The notes beneath the pieces are model-generated. The model was not told the origin of the DNA, searched no databases, and saw only the letters and a list, made by a program, of their open reading frames with translations. A stretch of DNA of 64,000 bases from Phycisphaerae bacterium RAS1 (GTDB taxonomy: Bacteria > Planctomycetota > Phycisphaerae > UBA1845 > Fen-1342), in contig SMLU01000001.1 of NCBI GenBank assembly GCA_007859745.1, forward strand, positions 1,550,001-1,614,000, in the 5' to 3' direction. A program made the translations under genes and the position numbers. Shown in pieces: positions 10,388 to 60,684 of the stretch (the first letter of the stretch is position 1; each line of letters starts with the position of its first letter).

Positions 10388-10470
10388 AGAGTAGCGAGTA
10401 GCGAGTTGAAGACGGGCCGCCTCTCGCGCGGTCTTCGTCTTCAACTCGCTACTCGCTACTCGCTACTCTT
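10388..10470. repeat. Inverted repeat of GAGTAGC units between convergent genes
   Basis: The arm 10389-10414 is perfectly complementary to 10436-10461, both built from tandem GAGTAGC or its complement. The repeat lies between the beta-propeller gene and the convergent carA, so it could act as a two-way terminator. The carA stop codon (10449-10451) is inside it. Confidence 0.8.
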
Positions 10471-12596: not shown

Positions 12597-15500
12597 TCAG
12601 CCGCCGGAGAGCAGGGCGACGAAGGGGTTGATGTCGAGGACATCGACGTTGCCGTCGTCGTTGATGTCGCCGTTGGCGATGTTGCAGCTCGAGTGCTGGT
12701 TCATGTACTCGGCTGGGTCGGACAGGGCCAGGACGAAGGGGTTGATGTCGAGCACGTTCACGGTGCCGTCGCAGTTCATGTCGCCCAGCACAAAGGCGGT
12801 GTACGTGAGGCCGCCGAGATACGTCTCGCTGGAGCCGTAGCTCGTCCCATCGCCGAACCAGACTTGGTTCGGTGGGTAGCTCGTGGGTGACCCGACCGCC
12901 AGCGACGCGATCGGCGTCGTGTCGATCAAGAGCACGCCCGTGCCGCCGGTAACGGCAAACTGGTACGCATGCTGGCCCATGGTATTGAACGGGGTGAATG
13001 GCGTGCCGGTCCAATTCTGTGTATTTCCGACGAAGACGCCGCTGGAACTGATGCCGATGACGAACCAGCGCTGCTGAGCGTCGACGACGCCGAAAGCGTA
13101 GCCGGTGCTGTTGATCCCGTTGTAGGTCGATGAAACAACGTCGAGCTGCATATCGAGCGAGAATCCGAGGTCGAAGTCGATGGGGACGGAGACGTTGTCC
13201 CAGTTTTGGCCCCCGGAGTATGCCGTCGGCCCCTGGTGCAGCGCGCCACCCACGACCGCGGGCTCGGGCGATGACCCCGGCGGGTTGTCGTGACGCGTCC
13301 AGCCCTGGGCCTCCGGTAGGGTTCCCAGGTTGGGTGCGTAGCTGAACGTCCCACCGGGGCTCATGGACGCGAGCGCCGCCGACAGCGCGCAAGCGGCCAG
13401 CGCCGCGCGCACCCGACTGCGAACCCGAGATTCGAGACCGACGGCGGCCTGCAGCCAACGCGCCGGCGCCGCCGACCGCGGCGCGAGCCACACGGCGGTC
13501 AGGGCATCCTTGGCAAACGCCGGGTACGCCTGAAGTGCGCTCCAGAAAGACATGTCCGAAACCTCCATTCGCCGAGCCAGAACACTGAGGGAGACCATCT
13601 CCCTCGTCTCAAGAGATGGAGAGGAATCGGACGCCGAAAGCGCCGCGGATTGGGCCGAAAACCGCGTACCGGCGTCAGGATGCAGCCACGGGCGCCACCC
13701 CCGGGGCGCGGCGTCGCGCCTCGGTCGAAGCCCCGCAGTGGCGACAGAGCCGCTGCGCGAGCGTGCCGCGCCGTCCTCGAGCGCGGCTGCGGCCACGTAC
13801 TCGCGCAGAAGGACGACGAACGAGCGCGGATCGGTCGACGCCTCGTCGAGCGCGCCACGTATGACCTGCCGCCGCTCCCGACACGACAGGCTTGCCCACC
13901 ACCGATCCATCGCCCCGGTGAATTCCATGTGAACCCTGCGATTCTGTACGTCTTTGCTGCGTATGACGGCGGCGTATTGCCGCACCGCCTTCGCATGTTC
14001 GCCGCGCGCCGCGAAGAACCGGGCGTAGTCAACCTGCGCGACAACTGACCCGTGTCCGGGTGATAGCAGCCATTCGAACTTCCGGCGCGCCAGGTCATCC
14101 TGGCCCGTCGCCGCCAACTGGCGGGCCTCGATCCGTTCCAGCCCGTCCATTCCCGGCAAACGGCTCATCCCCCGGGCTTGCGCAATCAGCCGCCCAGCCT
14201 TATCAAAGTCGCCGCACTGGAGCGCCGCATCCGCCAGCGCGGTCGTCAGGAACCCCACATGCGGAAAGACCTCGTTCGCCGCCCGCAGCCGCGGATAGGC
14301 CCGCGCGGGCTGGTCCAAGAGGAGGAACGCCTGCCCGATAGCGGCGTCGACGAGCGCGTCGGCGTCGCAGTGGCGGTCAAGCTGCGCCCACGCGGCGATC
14401 GCCGTCTGGAGATCGAGCAGCAGGTACGCCAGCAGTCCCAGATCGCGCAGCTCGTCGGCCGACCGCTCGTCGAGTCGCAGCTCGGCCGCCGGCGCGTGCG
14501 TGCCCGTTGCGAGCAGGCGCCGGGAGTACTCGCGACAGCACGGTCGCACCGAGGCCTCGGCTACGGATTCGGGCCGGTCAACGTGCGCGGACTGCATCGA
14601 ATCCGGGCTGCGCCGCGCCGCCGCCACTGTCTCGTACGCCAGGCGGACGACGTCGCGTTCGCACCGGATCGCGTCGTTCCAGGGCCGCAGCCGCAGCGCC
14701 CGCGCGTAGGCGCCCAGCGCTTCGTCGAGCCCCTCGAGCGCCACGGCGCGGACATCCGGTGCATGGACGCTCTGGTCATAGAAGAACAGCGCGTTGAAGA
14801 GCTGGGTCTGCTGGTGTGGATCGAGCAGCGCCAGCCGCGCCTCGCGCGTGTGCTGCGCCACCCAGCGCGGGACCCAGAAGAAGTACACGACCAGAAGGAG
14901 AGAAAGCGCCACCGCCCCGCCGGCCCCCAGCAGCAGCCCGACCAACGAGGCACGGTTGCGGCGGGCGAGCTTGATCGTGCGCGTCAGCAAGCTGGCGGGC
15001 CGGGCGCGGATCGGCTGGAGGTTGAGCAGCCGTTCGAGATCGTCGGCCAGCTCGGCGGCGGACGGGTAGCGGCGCTGTGGGTCCGCGTCGATCGCCTTGC
15101 TGATGATGGTGTCCAGATCAAGCGGCACGCGGTTGTTCAGCTTGCGCAGCGGCGTGATGCGGCCGGATTCGACCTGGCGCAGGATGGCGTCGGGCGTCGA
15201 GGCGCTGAAAGGCAGGCGACGGGCCAGGGCGTGGTAGAGCGTCACGCCCAGCGCGTACACGTCGCTGCGCGCGTCGAGCTTGTCGCTCTCGCCGCGAAGC
15301 TGCTCGGGGGCCGCGTACGCCGGCGTTCCGGCGAAACTGCCGGGCTGCGTCAGCGTTGCGTCGGTGTCACGCACCAGGCCGAAATCCGACAGCAGCGGCG
15401 TGCCGTCGCGGCGGATCAGGATGTTGCCGGGCTTCACGTCGCGATGCAGCAGGCCGGCGGCGTGGACGGCGGCCAGGGCGCGGGCGATGGCGACGCCGAG

Positions 15501-16160
15501 ACGGCAGATGAATGCGGTCGGAGAGGGATCAAGGGGAAAAAAGGGATCAAGGGATCTAGGGATAAAGGGATCAAGGGCGCGCTGGCCGACATCCTCGCTT
15601 GATCCCTTGATCCCTTGATCCCTCGATCCCTTCTTCTCCCGATCTCTCGATCCCTTCGTTCCCGATCCTTGTTCGACGATCCACTGCGCCAGCGTGCAGC
15701 CGTCGACCCACTCCATCGCGTACGCCAGCAGGCCGTCCTGCTGCACCACGTCGTGAATCGCGACGACGTTGGCGTGCCGCACCCTCGCGATGGCCCGCGC
15801 TTCGCTCAGGAAACGCTCGCGGGCGCGGGGCGAGAGGGCGGCCGCGTCGGGCAGCACCTTGAGCGCGACCGGACGGTCGCCCAGCCGCTCCTGCTGGGCG
15901 AGGTAGACGCAGCCCATGCCGCCGCGGCCGAGTTCGGAGAGGATGCGATAGCCGCGGATGTGCGGCCACGAGCGGCGCGGGCTGAGCGTGATCTGCTCGG
16001 CAAGCTGCAGGAGTTCGTCGAGCTGGCTGCGCAAATGCGGGCGGGCGGCGAGCAGTTCGTCGAGGCGCGGAGACTGTCCCTCTTCGAACGCCGCAACGAT
16101 TCGATCGAATGCGGCGTCGAGGTATTGCTCATCAGTCAGCTTGGCCTGCGGCTGCGTCAT
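12597..16160 (-). CDS. Ser/Thr protein kinase fused to TPR-like region, lectin-like domain and dockerin-like repeats
   Basis: This 1187-residue protein starts at ATG 16160 after GGAGG. The kinase core includes GRGGMGCVY (about 78-86), Lys 101, HRDVKPGN (about 239-246), DFG (about 259) and APE. A transmembrane helix spans about 405-430. A TPR-like helical region of about 440 residues follows. The last part, from about 905, is beta-rich and lectin-like, and it ends in two dockerin-like repeats (GDMNCDGTVNVLDINPFVLA and GDINDDGNVDVLDINPFVAL). Between kinase subdomains V and VI, residues about 165-213 are an in-frame translation of a GATCCCTT repeat. At 13553 an internal ATG has a good GGAGG site, followed by a signal-like stretch (RAALAACALSAALASM). 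The C-terminal part may therefore have been, or still be, a separate secreted protein. The ECF sigma gene at 16320 lies upstream on the same strand. Confidence 0.85.
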   Translation of the reverse strand: MTQPQAKLTDEQYLDAAFDRIVAAFEEGQSPRLDELLAARPHLRSQLDELLQLAEQITLSPRRSWPHIRGYRILSELGRGGMGCVYLAQQERLGDRPVALKVLPDAAALSPRARERFLSEARAIARVRHANVVAIHDVVQQDGLLAYAMEWVDGCTLAQWIVEQGSGTKGSRDREKKGSRDQGIKGSSEDVGQRALDPFIPRSLDPFFPLDPSPTAFICRLGVAIARALAAVHAAGLLHRDVKPGNILIRRDGTPLLSDFGLVRDTDATLTQPGSFAGTPAYAAPEQLRGESDKLDARSDVYALGVTLYHALARRLPFSASTPDAILRQVESGRITPLRKLNNRVPLDLDTIISKAIDADPQRRYPSAAELADDLERLLNLQPIRARPASLLTRTIKLARRNRASLVGLLLGAGGAVALSLLLVVYFFWVPRWVAQHTREARLALLDPHQQTQLFNALFFYDQSVHAPDVRAVALEGLDEALGAYARALRLRPWNDAIRCERDVVRLAYETVAAARRSPDSMQSAHVDRPESVAEASVRPCCREYSRRLLATGTHAPAAELRLDERSADELRDLGLLAYLLLDLQTAIAAWAQLDRHCDADALVDAAIGQAFLLLDQPARAYPRLRAANEVFPHVGFLTTALADAALQCGDFDKAGRLIAQARGMSRLPGMDGLERIEARQLAATGQDDLARRKFEWLLSPGHGSVVAQVDYARFFAARGEHAKAVRQYAAVIRSKDVQNRRVHMEFTGAMDRWWASLSCRERRQVIRGALDEASTDPRSFVVLLREYVAAAALEDGAARSRSGSVATAGLRPRRDAAPRGWRPWLHPDAGTRFSAQSAALSASDSSPSLETREMVSLSVLARRMEVSDMSFWSALQAYPAFAKDALTAVWLAPRSAAPARWLQAAVGLESRVRSRVRAALAACALSAALASMSPGGTFSYAPNLGTLPEAQGWTRHDNPPGSSPEPAVVGGALHQGPTAYSGGQNWDNVSVPIDFDLGFSLDMQLDVVSSTYNGINSTGYAFGVVDAQQRWFVIGISSSGVFVGNTQNWTGTPFTPFNTMGQHAYQFAVTGGTGVLLIDTTPIASLAVGSPTSYPPNQVWFGDGTSYGSSETYLGGLTYTAFVLGDMNCDGTVNVLDINPFVLALSDPAEYMNQHSSCNIANGDINDDGNVDVLDINPFVALLSGG
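15525..15668. repeat. GATCCCTT repeat expanded inside the kinase coding sequence
   Basis: The plus strand shows several AGGGATCAAGGG units (15525-15576), then a 21-bp spacer, then CTTGATCCC units (15598-15668). Together they can form a long hairpin. The block is a multiple of three and stays open, inserting about 48 residues (KGSRDQGIKGS and DPFIPRSLDP type) in the kinase domain. The same unit occurs between genes at 57737-57786. Confidence 0.88.
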
Positions 16161-16218: not shown

Positions 16219-16322
16219 GTGTAGGGTAGGCCGTGCCCACCTTCGCAACGCACGACAACCAACGCCACCGGCGACTGGTGGGCACGGCCCACCCTACGGA
16301 TCGGTGGGCGATGCCCACCCTA
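16219..16322. repeat. Dispersed hairpin repeat, GTAGGGTGGGCATCGCCCACC family
   Basis: Inverted copies of GGTGGGCACGGCCCACCCTA and of GGTGGGCGATGCCCACCCTA type lie between the sigma factor and kinase genes. They add a false N-terminal extension to the kinase frame. The last arm directly abuts the sigma gene stop codon. Confidence 0.75.
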
Positions 16323-17012
16323 CGGAGAGGATTTCGGTCCGTCGCGGAGCGCGTCGCCAGGTGCGTCCGCTGAAGCCGCCCGCGAGAGAGTCTCCGACCG
16401 CTCGCGCCACTCGGCGGCAAGCCGCTCACGGTACAGCGCCGCCGCCTTGCGGAACCGATGTCGCACGGCGGCCTCGCCGATCTGTAAGCGCTCCGCAGTT
16501 TCCTCAACCGAAAGCTGCTCCAGCAGCCGCAGCCGCAGAACCTCGCCCAGCTCCGGCGGAAGCGAATCGACCGCGGCGCGAATGGCGGCGGCCTGCTCGC
16601 GGTAGATCGCGACGCGGCTGGGTGTCGTCGTTCCGGCGGGTTCGAGCGGCCCGGCGGTGCTTTGGCCGGGCGGGCGCAGGTCGGCCAGGCCGACCGGTGT
16701 GCGTCCGTTGCCGCGCTTGGCGGCGGAAGCGGCTTCGGACAGATCGCGGATTCGGTTGTCGATGATGCTGAGCAGCCAGTTGCGAAAGCTCTTGACGCCG
16801 CGCCACTCGCAAGCGGCCCGGTCGCGCCAGGCGTGGAGCAGGGCTTCCTGGAAGACGTCTTCGGGCGTCAGGCTGCGGCGCAGGGCGGTGCTCATGCGCG
16901 AATCGATCACCACCAGCAGCGCCGCCGGGCCGACCGCGTCGATCAGCTGATCCCAGACCTGCGGCGAGTCGGACGTGAGCGGGTTGTCGGTCGAGCGGAA
17001 CATGTGCACCAT
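16320..17012 (-). CDS. ECF-family RNA polymerase sigma factor
   Basis: This 230-residue protein has sigma region 2 at about residues 25-95 (DVFQEALLHAWR, then FRNWLLSIIDNRIRD). Region 4 spans about 145-205 (LPPELGEVLRLRLLEQLSVE, then TAERLQIGEAAVRHRFRKA as the helix-turn-helix). It belongs to the planctomycete-type ECF factors encoded next to Ser/Thr kinases, which are thought to control or be controlled by the kinase. The kinase gene begins 160 bases downstream on the same strand, with a hairpin repeat between. The start could also be the ATG three codons in (17003). No anti-sigma gene is visible. Confidence 0.92.
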   Translation of the reverse strand: MVHMFRSTDNPLTSDSPQVWDQLIDAVGPAALLVVIDSRMSTALRRSLTPEDVFQEALLHAWRDRAACEWRGVKSFRNWLLSIIDNRIRDLSEAASAAKRGNGRTPVGLADLRPPGQSTAGPLEPAGTTTPSRVAIYREQAAAIRAAVDSLPPELGEVLRLRLLEQLSVEETAERLQIGEAAVRHRFRKAAALYRERLAAEWRERSETLSRAASADAPGDALRDGPKSSP

Positions 17013-24813: not shown

Positions 24814-24867
24814 ATCCGCCCATCCGCCCATCCGCCCATCCGCCCATCCGCCCATCCGCCCATCCGC
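24814..24867 (+). repeat. 8-bp tandem repeat ATCCGCCC, six copies plus a partial
   Basis: Six perfect ATCCGCCC units run from 24814 to 24861, followed by ATCCGC. The array lies between a strong promoter and the AAGGAG ribosome site (24873-24878) of the next gene. Copy number in such arrays often varies between strains, which would change leader length here. Confidence 0.92.
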
Positions 24868-57686: not shown

Positions 57687-57736
57687 CTCAAGCGATTGTA
57701 GGATCGCGCAGTCACGGGATCGAGCGATGAACGCCC

Positions 57737-57786
57737 CTCGATCCCTCGATCCCTTGATCTCTTGATCCCTTGATCCCTTGATCCCT
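57737..57786. repeat. GATCCCTT tandem repeat, intergenic copy
   Basis: Six or seven imperfect units of CTTGATCCC/CTCGATCCC run here, downstream of alaS. The same unit fills part of the kinase gene at 15525-15668. Confidence 0.85.
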
Positions 57787-57801: not shown

Positions 57802-60684
57802 CTACGACGCTCTCAGCTTCTCTTCAATCCACGTCCGTCCGGCCGCGAGGACGTCGCTGATCTTGTGCGGGTTCTTGCCGCCGGCCTGCGCCATCGTCGC
57901 CGGGCCGCCGCCGCCGCCCTCAATCATCGGCGCCACCGCCTTGACCAGGTCCCCGGCCCGCAGGCCGCGCTTGTTCAGGTCGTCGCTCATCGCCGCCAGC
58001 AGCGTCGCCCGCCCATCGGCGGTGCGAATGGCGAAGAGGATCGCCGCCGACCCGCACTTGGCCTTCACCAGGTCCGCGCCGCGCTTGAGCTGCTCGGCGG
58101 GCACGTCCGGCATTTCGCCGACCACGACCGACGTCGATCCGACCTGAAGAGCGTCCGACAACAGCTCGAACACGCGCTCGTTCACCAGCCCGGTCGCTCC
58201 GGCTGACGCCGCTTTCTTCTCTTTCTTCATCATCTCCTGCAGCTCGCCCATCTGGTCGCGCAGGCGGAAGCGGTCGCGCAGCGGAATGACCGCGTTCGTG
58301 AGCGACGTCTGCAGCTCGGACAGCCCGGCCGCGAGCTGGTCGCGCGGGCCGCCGCGAATCTGGTCCGCCCGCCGCAGGAGCATTCGCCCCATCTGCACGG
58401 CTTCATCGGCCGCGTCGCCGCTCACGCCCACCACGCGCCGCACGCCCTTGGCCACGCCCTCTTCCGAAATCAGGACGAATCGGCCGATGTGGCTGGTCGA
58501 GGGAACGTGCGTCCCGCCGCAGAACTCGATCGAGACGCCGGACCATTCCGGGTTCTCGGGGTTGTGCAGCAGCAGATCGACCGGCTTGCCGATCGAGACG
58601 ACGCGCACCGGGTCGGGATATTTCTCGCCGAAGACGGCCCGCACGCCCAGAAGCTTCTGGGCCTGCGCCAGAGGAACTTCCTTGGCGTAAACCTGGAGGC
58701 TCTTCTCGACCTGCTCGTTGGTGAGCGACTCGATCTTTTCGATGTCTTCAGCCGCGACCGGCTTGTTGTGTGAGAAATCAAAGCGCGTCTTTTCAGAATC
58801 CACCAGCGAGCCGCGCTGGTTCACGCCGTCGCCCAGCGTCTCGCGCAGGGCCCAGTTCAGCACGTGCGTGGCGGTGTGGTTGCGCATGACGCGATGCCGC
58901 GTTTCGTGCTGCACGACGCCCTCGGCCAGCACGGTTCGTCCGGGCCGCCCGCCGCGGGTGCGCGGCCCTTCGGCGGCGCCCAGCGCCGCGATTTCGCCGG
59001 AGGCGACGCGGCCGTAGTGCACGTAGGCGTCGCCGCTCCTGCGCGTCGCCTCGACGAGGAATTCCCAGTCGCCGTCGCGCCCGCGGACGACGCCCACGTC
59101 GCCGACCTGTCCGCCCATTTCGGCGTAGAAGGGCGTCTCGTCGAGGATCAGCGCGCCCTCGTCGCCGCTGCGCAGGCCGTCGTAGTGCCAGCCTTCCGAC
59201 CAGCGGGCGCTGAGCACGACGCGGGCCTCGTGCGTCAGCTCGTGATAGCCGACAAACTTGGTCCGCAGCGTCGCGGTATCGGTGAAAGGCGACTGCTCAA
59301 ACCAGCGCTCGGCGCTCTTGCCGCCGGCGCGGGCCCGCTCGCGCGCCTCGTCCATCAGCCGCTCATACTCGCCGATGTCGACCTGCAGCCCTTTTTCCTG
59401 GGCCATGATCTGCGTCAGGTCGATCGGGAAGCCAAACGTGTCATGCAGCCGAAAGGCGTCCAACCCCTGAATCTCGCCGCGGTGATCGCGGCGCGCGTGG
59501 GCCGCGGCTTCTTCGAACAGCGCCAGGCCGCGCTCGAGCGTGCGCCCGAACGACTCCTCCTCGTCGCGCAGCACCTCGGCCACGCGGCCCGGGTCCTGCG
59601 TCAGTTCCGGGAACGCCGCCCCCATGGTCTGAACCACCGCCGGCACGAGTCGATGCACGAACGGCTCATGCATGTTCAGATATTGCCAGCCATAACGCAC
59701 CGCCCGCCGCAGAATCCGCCGCAGGACGTAGCCGCGGCCCTCCTTGTCGGGCAGCGCCCCGTCCGTGAGCGCGAAAGTCAGCGTGCGAGCGTGATCGGCT
59801 ACGACGCGATACGCCACGTCGATGAGCGTCTGTGTCCGGTCGCCGTTGTCGCTCTCCAGCAGTCCGGTGTAGGCCGGGGCGCGGGTCACTTCGCGAACGG
59901 CCTGAAAGAGCGGCGCGAACACGTCCGTGTCATAGTTGCTGCGTTTGCCTTGCAGAACGGCGGTGACGCGCTCGAAGCCCATGCCCGTGTCGACGTGCTT
60001 GGAGGGCAGAATCGTCAACTTGCCGCCCGGAACGCGGTTGAACTGAATGAAAACCAGGTTCCAGATTTCGATGACGCGCGGATCGCCGCCGTTGACCAGC
60101 GCCGCGCCGCTCTTGTCAGGCGTCAGGTCGATGTGGATTTCGCTGCACGGCCCGCACGGCCCCGTGTCGCCCATCTCCCAGAAGTTGTCCTTCTTGTTGC
60201 CGGGGTGAATGTGCGACCGGTCAATGTCCGTCACGCTCGCCCAAAGCTGCTTGGCTTCCAGGTCCGGCTCAAGCCCCTCATCGGCGTCGCCCTGAAAGTA
60301 GGTCGCGTGCAGCCGCGAGCCGTCAATGCCCCAAACCTTCGTCAGCAATGTCCAGGCCCACTCGATCGCCTCCTTCTTGAAGTAGTCGCCGAAGGACCAG
60401 TTGCCGAGCATCTCGAAGAACGTGTGGTGATACGTGTCGTGGCCGACGTCGTCGAGGTCATTGTGTTTGCCCCCGGCGCGGATGCACTTCTGCGTGTTGG
60501 CGGCTCGCCGATAGTCGCGCTCGCCCGCCCCCAGAAACACGTCCTTGAACTGGTTCATCCCGGCGTTGGTGAAGAGCAGCGTCGGGTCGTCCAGAGGCAC
60601 GACCGGCGAACTGGGGACGAAGCGGTGCCCGCGCTCGACGAAAAAGTCGATGAATTCCTGCCGAATCTGGGAAGCCGATCGCAT
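57802..60684 (-). CDS. alaS: Alanine--tRNA ligase
   Basis: This 960-residue enzyme charges tRNA-Ala. The class II catalytic domain begins RSASQIRQEFIDFFVERGHR, with LFTNAGMNQFKDVFLG and the AANTQKCIRAGGKHNDLDDV segment. The editing domain has the zinc-binding motifs HTATHVL and CGGTHV, and the C-terminal Ala-rich domain ends with GGGPATMAQAGGK, typical of the C-Ala region. It is slightly longer than the Escherichia coli enzyme. The gene is single, with a repeat array downstream and a hairpin repeat region upstream. Confidence 0.98.
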   Translation of the reverse strand: MRSASQIRQEFIDFFVERGHRFVPSSPVVPLDDPTLLFTNAGMNQFKDVFLGAGERDYRRAANTQKCIRAGGKHNDLDDVGHDTYHHTFFEMLGNWSFGDYFKKEAIEWAWTLLTKVWGIDGSRLHATYFQGDADEGLEPDLEAKQLWASVTDIDRSHIHPGNKKDNFWEMGDTGPCGPCSEIHIDLTPDKSGAALVNGGDPRVIEIWNLVFIQFNRVPGGKLTILPSKHVDTGMGFERVTAVLQGKRSNYDTDVFAPLFQAVREVTRAPAYTGLLESDNGDRTQTLIDVAYRVVADHARTLTFALTDGALPDKEGRGYVLRRILRRAVRYGWQYLNMHEPFVHRLVPAVVQTMGAAFPELTQDPGRVAEVLRDEEESFGRTLERGLALFEEAAAHARRDHRGEIQGLDAFRLHDTFGFPIDLTQIMAQEKGLQVDIGEYERLMDEARERARAGGKSAERWFEQSPFTDTATLRTKFVGYHELTHEARVVLSARWSEGWHYDGLRSGDEGALILDETPFYAEMGGQVGDVGVVRGRDGDWEFLVEATRRSGDAYVHYGRVASGEIAALGAAEGPRTRGGRPGRTVLAEGVVQHETRHRVMRNHTATHVLNWALRETLGDGVNQRGSLVDSEKTRFDFSHNKPVAAEDIEKIESLTNEQVEKSLQVYAKEVPLAQAQKLLGVRAVFGEKYPDPVRVVSIGKPVDLLLHNPENPEWSGVSIEFCGGTHVPSTSHIGRFVLISEEGVAKGVRRVVGVSGDAADEAVQMGRMLLRRADQIRGGPRDQLAAGLSELQTSLTNAVIPLRDRFRLRDQMGELQEMMKKEKKAASAGATGLVNERVFELLSDALQVGSTSVVVGEMPDVPAEQLKRGADLVKAKCGSAAILFAIRTADGRATLLAAMSDDLNKRGLRAGDLVKAVAPMIEGGGGGPATMAQAGGKNPHKISDVLAAGRTWIEEKLRAS

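Follow-up and report, generated by a model that had tools for sequence, protein, structure and literature searches.

An in-frame octamer hairpin in a planctomycete kinase gene, probably an IVP-less relative of intervening-sequence elements

Within the window, the 64,000-nucleotide stretch of planctomycete DNA analyzed here, the gene for a protein kinase is interrupted by short tandem repeats followed by the same repeats in inverted orientation. The locus raises the question of what kind of element this is, how it came to lie inside a catalytic domain, and whether the kinase can work with it.

The kinase insert and its host protein

By direct reading and TRF, the octamer hairpin was placed at 15524–15670. 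It consists of a first arm of AGGGATCR-type units, one of them irregular, on the plus strand (15524–15573), a 26-bp spacer that forms the hairpin loop region (15574–15599), and a second arm of inverted, minus-strand YGATCCCT-type units (15600–15670) that pairs with the first, as judged from the sequence and the predicted fold. A preliminary description had located the array correctly, with slightly different ends (15525–15668). RNA from the gene strand folded at −93 kcal/mol, with a z-score of −8.5 relative to dinucleotide shuffles, and the insert thus has hairpin-forming inverted ends like those of IVP/IVS elements. The spacer, at 26 bp, contains no IVP gene. Rfam returned no match at the gathering score for the insert, only sub-threshold hairpin noise, and only rRNA and tRNA matches for six other loci. 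A near-repeat of GTGGGCACGGCCCACCCTAC type is located at 16277–16326, just upstream of the kinase gene.

The host gene, on the minus strand at 12597–16160 with its ATG at 16160, is an open reading frame of 1187 amino acids, encoding a Ser/Thr protein kinase with a TPR region (Pfam PF00069, 3e-38; TPR_19; orthologue alignment). Residues 164–213 correspond to the octamer array, and the host frame stays open through both the units and their inverted copies, as first described. Kinase orthologues from other planctomycete records and from genomes of the same family aligned across all catalytic motifs, and the glycine-rich loop, the ALKVL lysine and the HRDVKPGN, SDFG and APE motifs are intact. The insert falls in the αD–αE loop, which is 53 residues long here, 9–46 residues in the orthologues and 70 residues in one paralogue. 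The original estimate of about 48 extra residues was too high, because the orthologue loops already have 9–46 residues at this position, and for the same reason the premise that insertions of such length are rarely tolerated at this boundary finds no support in this kinase family. The octamers themselves occurred in none of the 13 kinase homologues, in agreement with the proposal that a dispersed repeat had moved into the gene with the reading frame preserved rather than being an insert common to all orthologues.

An AlphaFold2 model of the kinase, based on 14 sequences, had a mean pLDDT of 81.5. The core was modeled confidently, and pLDDT dropped below 50 at residues 108–147 of the modeled fragment, covering most of the insert, and at residues 204–214. 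The model suggests that the insert is a disordered loop between αD and αE and that the kinase should therefore still work; most likely, it is functional. The other possibility raised previously was that the kinase is in early decay, an incipient pseudogene in which the repeat expands without constraint. Within the insert and some portions of the C-terminal third, the ORF does have a low coding score, but with all motifs intact, the ORF open, the core well modeled and the same kind of insert present in essential enzymes (see below), we regard decay as very improbable. The C-terminal part of the ORF (12597–13450) resembles an exported protein, in which a signal-peptide-like stretch is followed by dockerin-like repeats, and may represent a fusion or a missed frame change.

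Dispersed and in-frame copies of the octamer

Exact dimers of the octamer with R at the degenerate position occur 78 times in the genome that contains the window, compared to none for a reversed-pattern control. They form approximately 33 arrays among the matches listed (28 stretches plus those in the window). The units vary, and the arrays are imperfect and often single-armed, but where two opposite arrays are adjacent, the G-rich arm comes first in all 17 cases. Non-coding copies are mostly found 7–46 bp beyond stop codons, several of them between convergent genes, although these distances are approximate, since the gene calls rest on a custom codon model. One such copy is a second array in the window, a single minus-strand arm detected by TRF and sequence reading at 57735–57786 (period 8, 93% match); an isolated unit occurs at 57715. 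A distance of 16 bp separates this array from the stop end of a 960-aa minus-strand gene (57802–60684). This is the intergenic copy noted previously at 57737–57786, which is real and slightly longer. Across 61 genomes, the octamer dimer was present in 12, with a patchy distribution that leaves out most relatives.

Two further repeats in the window have different units. A heptamer hairpin, (GAGTAGC)2...(GCTACTC)3, lies between convergent genes at 10389–10468 and has a unit like that in the arms of two IVP genes of the same genome (L119 and L120). A perfect array of another octamer, (ATCCGCCC) x 6.8, is found at 24814–24867; no inverted partner was seen.

In-frame palindromic insertions were found not only in the kinase but also in urocanase, ValRS, DnaE and ClpB, where the inserts were measured by alignment to solved homologue structures. 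Urocanase (L053) has 31 additional residues between residues 157 and 158 of 1x87, ValRS (L071) has about 29 residues where 1gax has 3, DnaE (L072) has 36 where 2hpi has 1, and ClpB (L068) has 55 where the E. coli protein has 19. The identities of ValRS, DnaE and the error-prone polymerase encoded by dnaE2 were named by NCBIfam. A second urocanase insert of 35 residues, at residue 274, coincides with a heptamer array (L053:3266–3294), and the urocanase gene (L053:2342–4276) consequently has two separate in-frame inserts, one octamer and one heptamer (AGGGAAC type). Such copies illustrate a way in which repeats can make essential proteins longer. We also looked for stop avoidance in the C-rich arm of the coding copies, where none of 3 units had T at the stop phase, compared to 9 of 15 at the other phases; these numbers are too small, and the argument partly circular, for this to be used.

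The position of the non-coding copies might suggest that the repeats function at gene 3' ends, where selection would maintain them past stop codons as G-quadruplexes or as terminator-like structures acting in both directions, with the coding copies incidental. The purine-first, pyrimidine-second order of the arms is terminator-like, and comparable repeats in Xanthomonas, located at a mean distance of 28 nt beyond the upstream ORF, are able to adopt G-quadruplex structures (PMC4692102). However, terminators would damage the genes for the kinase, ValRS, DnaE, ClpB and urocanase, in which copies nonetheless persist, and the family is patchy and absent from most relatives. We therefore consider a primary 3'-end function improbable.

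IVP genes with matching arms

In the same genome, an ORF that matches PF05635 and TIGR02436, the 23S rRNA IVP/four-helix-bundle family, lies between the two arrays of an octamer pair in dnaE2 (L065/L116). Proteins of this family are common. The kinase insert and this IVP gene thus have arms built from the same AGGGATCR unit, which supports a link between the insert and IVP elements. Neither the role of the octamer as the arms of an IVP element in dnaE2 nor the in-frame copies in essential enzymes had been part of the initial reading of the repeat.

The genome has six IVP genes, each of which, as judged by eye, lies between short inverted repeats whose unit differs from gene to gene. One of them (L118, C1:3065349–3065666) has GAAACTA-like heptamer arms and interrupts the 23S rRNA gene, as in a classical IVS. 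Two others (L119 and L120, C1:1927845–1929515), with GAGTAGC-like arms, apparently lie between ATP synthase genes, according to the flanking translations. Across the family, 59 of 74 IVP genes had inverted flanks scoring at least 34, compared to 2.9% of shuffled pairings; this score missed one of the six genes above (L121) and gave modest values for L118 and L119. The arm period was 7 or 8 in all 59 high-scoring genes, and the upstream arm was never pyrimidine-rich. Similar flanks were found in 11 plasmid records (nine cyanobacterial, one each from Gemmatirosa and Azospirillum) and 30 phylum-wide loci, with a median score of 41 versus 18 for the null. A correlation between arm unit and IVP similarity was significant (Mantel r 0.33, exceeded in 0 of 2000 permutations), but it is confounded by orthologous sites and was set aside as evidence.

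An IVP element occupies one dnaE2 position in 11 genera (L116/L231, L232–L238, L243–L245); these cases are not independent, because they probably descend from few insertions. The distance between the flanking motifs is 196–285 residues in the ten occupied sites measured, compared to 31 residues in genera where the site is empty. In all 11, the host dnaE2 frame is open through arms and IVP, and a different frame encodes the IVP. In its own frame, the IVP had a mean identity of 58%, versus 32% for the host frame, and values for third-position change were 0.56 versus 0.27–0.32, a sequence pattern indicating that the IVP gene is under selection in its own frame. The host-type frame was free of stops in 23 of 111 IVP genes, compared to 4.3 expected from synonymous shuffles, and the other overlapping frame was open in none of the 111, which makes the fixed relative frame of the overprinted IVPs partly compositional. 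Read-through was also seen in Eco57I-type and N6_N4 DNA methylase genes and at a second site in dnaE2, which is occupied in L148. At the main dnaE2 site, a selfish-looking gene has clearly been overprinted on a host gene that can still be read. IVP elements with an open host frame were observed in five DNA methylase genes (L132, L154, L202, L204 and L209), and three methylase elements lie between YYTP and DPACGSG-type motifs.

Four units were searched across the genomes for dimers. Dimers were enriched where the IVP arms carry the same unit for AGGGATCR (p = 0.012), GTGGGAAM (p = 0.004) and AGGGATTD (p = 0.017), although these p-values are generous, since the counts include the IVP arms and the genomes share kinship. 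Two of three tested units fit the resident IVPs in all predicted genomes. The third, GAAGCCAC, did so only in G011, its top genome, as predicted from the IVP arms there; the other two predicted genomes had only 1–2 dimers. Among six IVP-free genomes, dimers were found in one alone (G008), two of them, at a single place. The dnaE2 site of G008 contains a short GGGATCA array, in frame, and lacks an IVP gene, which is what a decayed copy would look like. Three genomes (G013, G009 and G025) had many copies of a unit for which no matching IVP was found.

These results bear on a purely local origin, in which 7–8 bp repeats expand by polymerase slippage, the inverted arm results from snap-back template switching, and the instability is all that IVP elements have in common with them. 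The variable, imperfect and often single-armed arrays would fit such a process, as would the difference in heptamer number between strains in the Coxiella IVS (PMC4990558). Slippage does not readily explain one exact unit at approximately 33 unrelated sites among the matches listed, with no control matches, nor a unit that differs by genome and tracks the resident IVP arms, nor an arm order of 17 to 0, and we consider it unlikely as the sole cause.

Our preferred interpretation is that the kinase insert is probably an IVP-less hairpin of the IVP/intervening-sequence kind, formed by two inverted arrays of one 8-bp unit. It looks like a stripped-down IVP element because its unit matches the arms flanking an IVP gene, and we term it a derivative rather than a full member because the 26-bp spacer has no such gene. 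In this genome, the IVP-carrying member with the AGGGATCR octamer is the one in dnaE2, other members use other 7- or 8-bp units, and short IVP-less copies are dispersed between genes, mostly just past stop codons, and in coding regions. In the mechanism we propose, a copy in a coding region would be retained only if its length and codon content leave the host frame without stops and the encoded peptide sits in a loop that tolerates it. The hairpins may spread as mobile DNA, presumably helped by the IVP protein, which is predicted to bind them in the form of RNA or single-stranded DNA. IVP genes with the same arms lie at orthologous sites, while matching hairpins are dispersed. Counting against mobile hairpins, the analysis revealed neither a transposition event nor a target-site duplication nor any polymorphism between strains, and to our knowledge the IVP has no known nuclease domain.

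Another system might instead act in trans on the hairpins, either a RAYT tyrosine transposase or a reverse transcriptase. A RAYT-like transposase region is indeed present in the same genome, inside the valS ORF (L071:3914–4925) and in frame with the host gene, flanked by its own inverted REP-like repeats of ~30–39 bp (CCGAGCCGCGACCGTGAGGGAGCGGTTCTT). The genome also has two RVT_1 genes, and the IVP shows distant similarity to Avd, a DGR protein. However, the RAYT arms, ~30 bp in length, are unrelated in sequence to the octamer, and there was no RVT_1 match in the array-rich genomes G003, G009, G013 and G025, some of which are incomplete. A reverse transcriptase was accordingly rejected as a universal driver, and mobilization by either system seems still less probable than a 3'-end function.

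Beyond the kinase, a tentative generalization is that IVP genes and 7–8 bp tandem-repeat hairpins could constitute one widespread dispersal system, similar to RAYT/REPIN but without a recognized transposase. IVP genes would reside at old conserved sites (23S rRNA, dnaE2 and DNA methylase genes), overprinted where the host frame runs open, while hairpins lacking an IVP would spread into the DNA between genes and into loops of essential proteins. Such a system would also have given rise to the dispersed heptamer arrays of Xanthomonas, Nostoc and other bacteria. We do not hold this as firmly as the interpretation of the kinase insert itself. It would make IVP-type elements a candidate cause of dispersed heptamer and octamer repeats in bacteria, and the consistent 7–8 bp inverted arrays with matching dispersed hairpins offer a testable role for the IVP proteins. 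No account of the octamer unit, nor any paper joining IVP, heptamer arrays and Rickettsia palindromic elements (RPEs), was found in the open-access literature, which does not prove novelty.

Comparison with known systems

The 23S rRNA IVSs are among the closest known systems. In the Coxiella IVS, terminal inverted repeats form a 28-bp stem, tandem heptamers precede the ORF of S23p, a protein whose function is not known, and the element is excised by RNase III (PMC4990558). The elements described here likewise form hairpins with inverted ends, the full-size members share the PF05635/TIGR02436 protein family, and one copy in the same genome sits in the 23S rRNA gene. Unlike these IVSs, the kinase copy lies in a protein gene rather than an rRNA gene, lacks an IVP gene and has arms that are 8-bp arrays, and excision by RNase III at this site would cut the mRNA.

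According to the accessible part of PMC4692102, Xanthomonas heptamers have a paired layout, prefer four units and lie near gene 3' ends, and Nostoc has similar arrays, few of them paired. The octamers resemble these GGGAATC and GGGGA(C/T)T arrays in being dispersed, short and G-rich, often with four units near gene 3' ends, and resemble the Xanthomonas heptamers in their many convergent inverted pairs. They differ in having an 8-bp unit, and only 7–11% of the copies in that study overlap ORFs. There, the arrays were interpreted as G-quadruplexes, and no link to IVP is drawn in the text available.

In-frame palindromes can also persist in genes as RPEs, which, in the portion of PMC10969869 available, are hairpins of ~100–150 bp found in frame in unrelated genes, including essential ones. 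The kinase insert may be tolerated in the same manner; it would work like an RPE rather than be one. RPEs do not consist of tandem 8-bp units, that portion mentions no association with IVP, and the host here is a planctomycete.

Finally, REPIN/RAYT systems likewise comprise dispersed, hairpin-forming pairs of inverted repeats, together with a small number of stationary genes that have the same repeat on either side (PMC3116915). In our case, the resident gene encodes an IVP rather than a tyrosine transposase, and the arms are tandem 7–8 bp arrays, while REPINs are mostly extragenic (PMC3116915). No RAYT gene flanked by the octamer was found in this genome, where the RAYT-like gene in valS has its unrelated arms. 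Stationary IVP genes accompanied by dispersed matching hairpins nevertheless follow the same logic as RAYTs and REPINs (PMC3116915).
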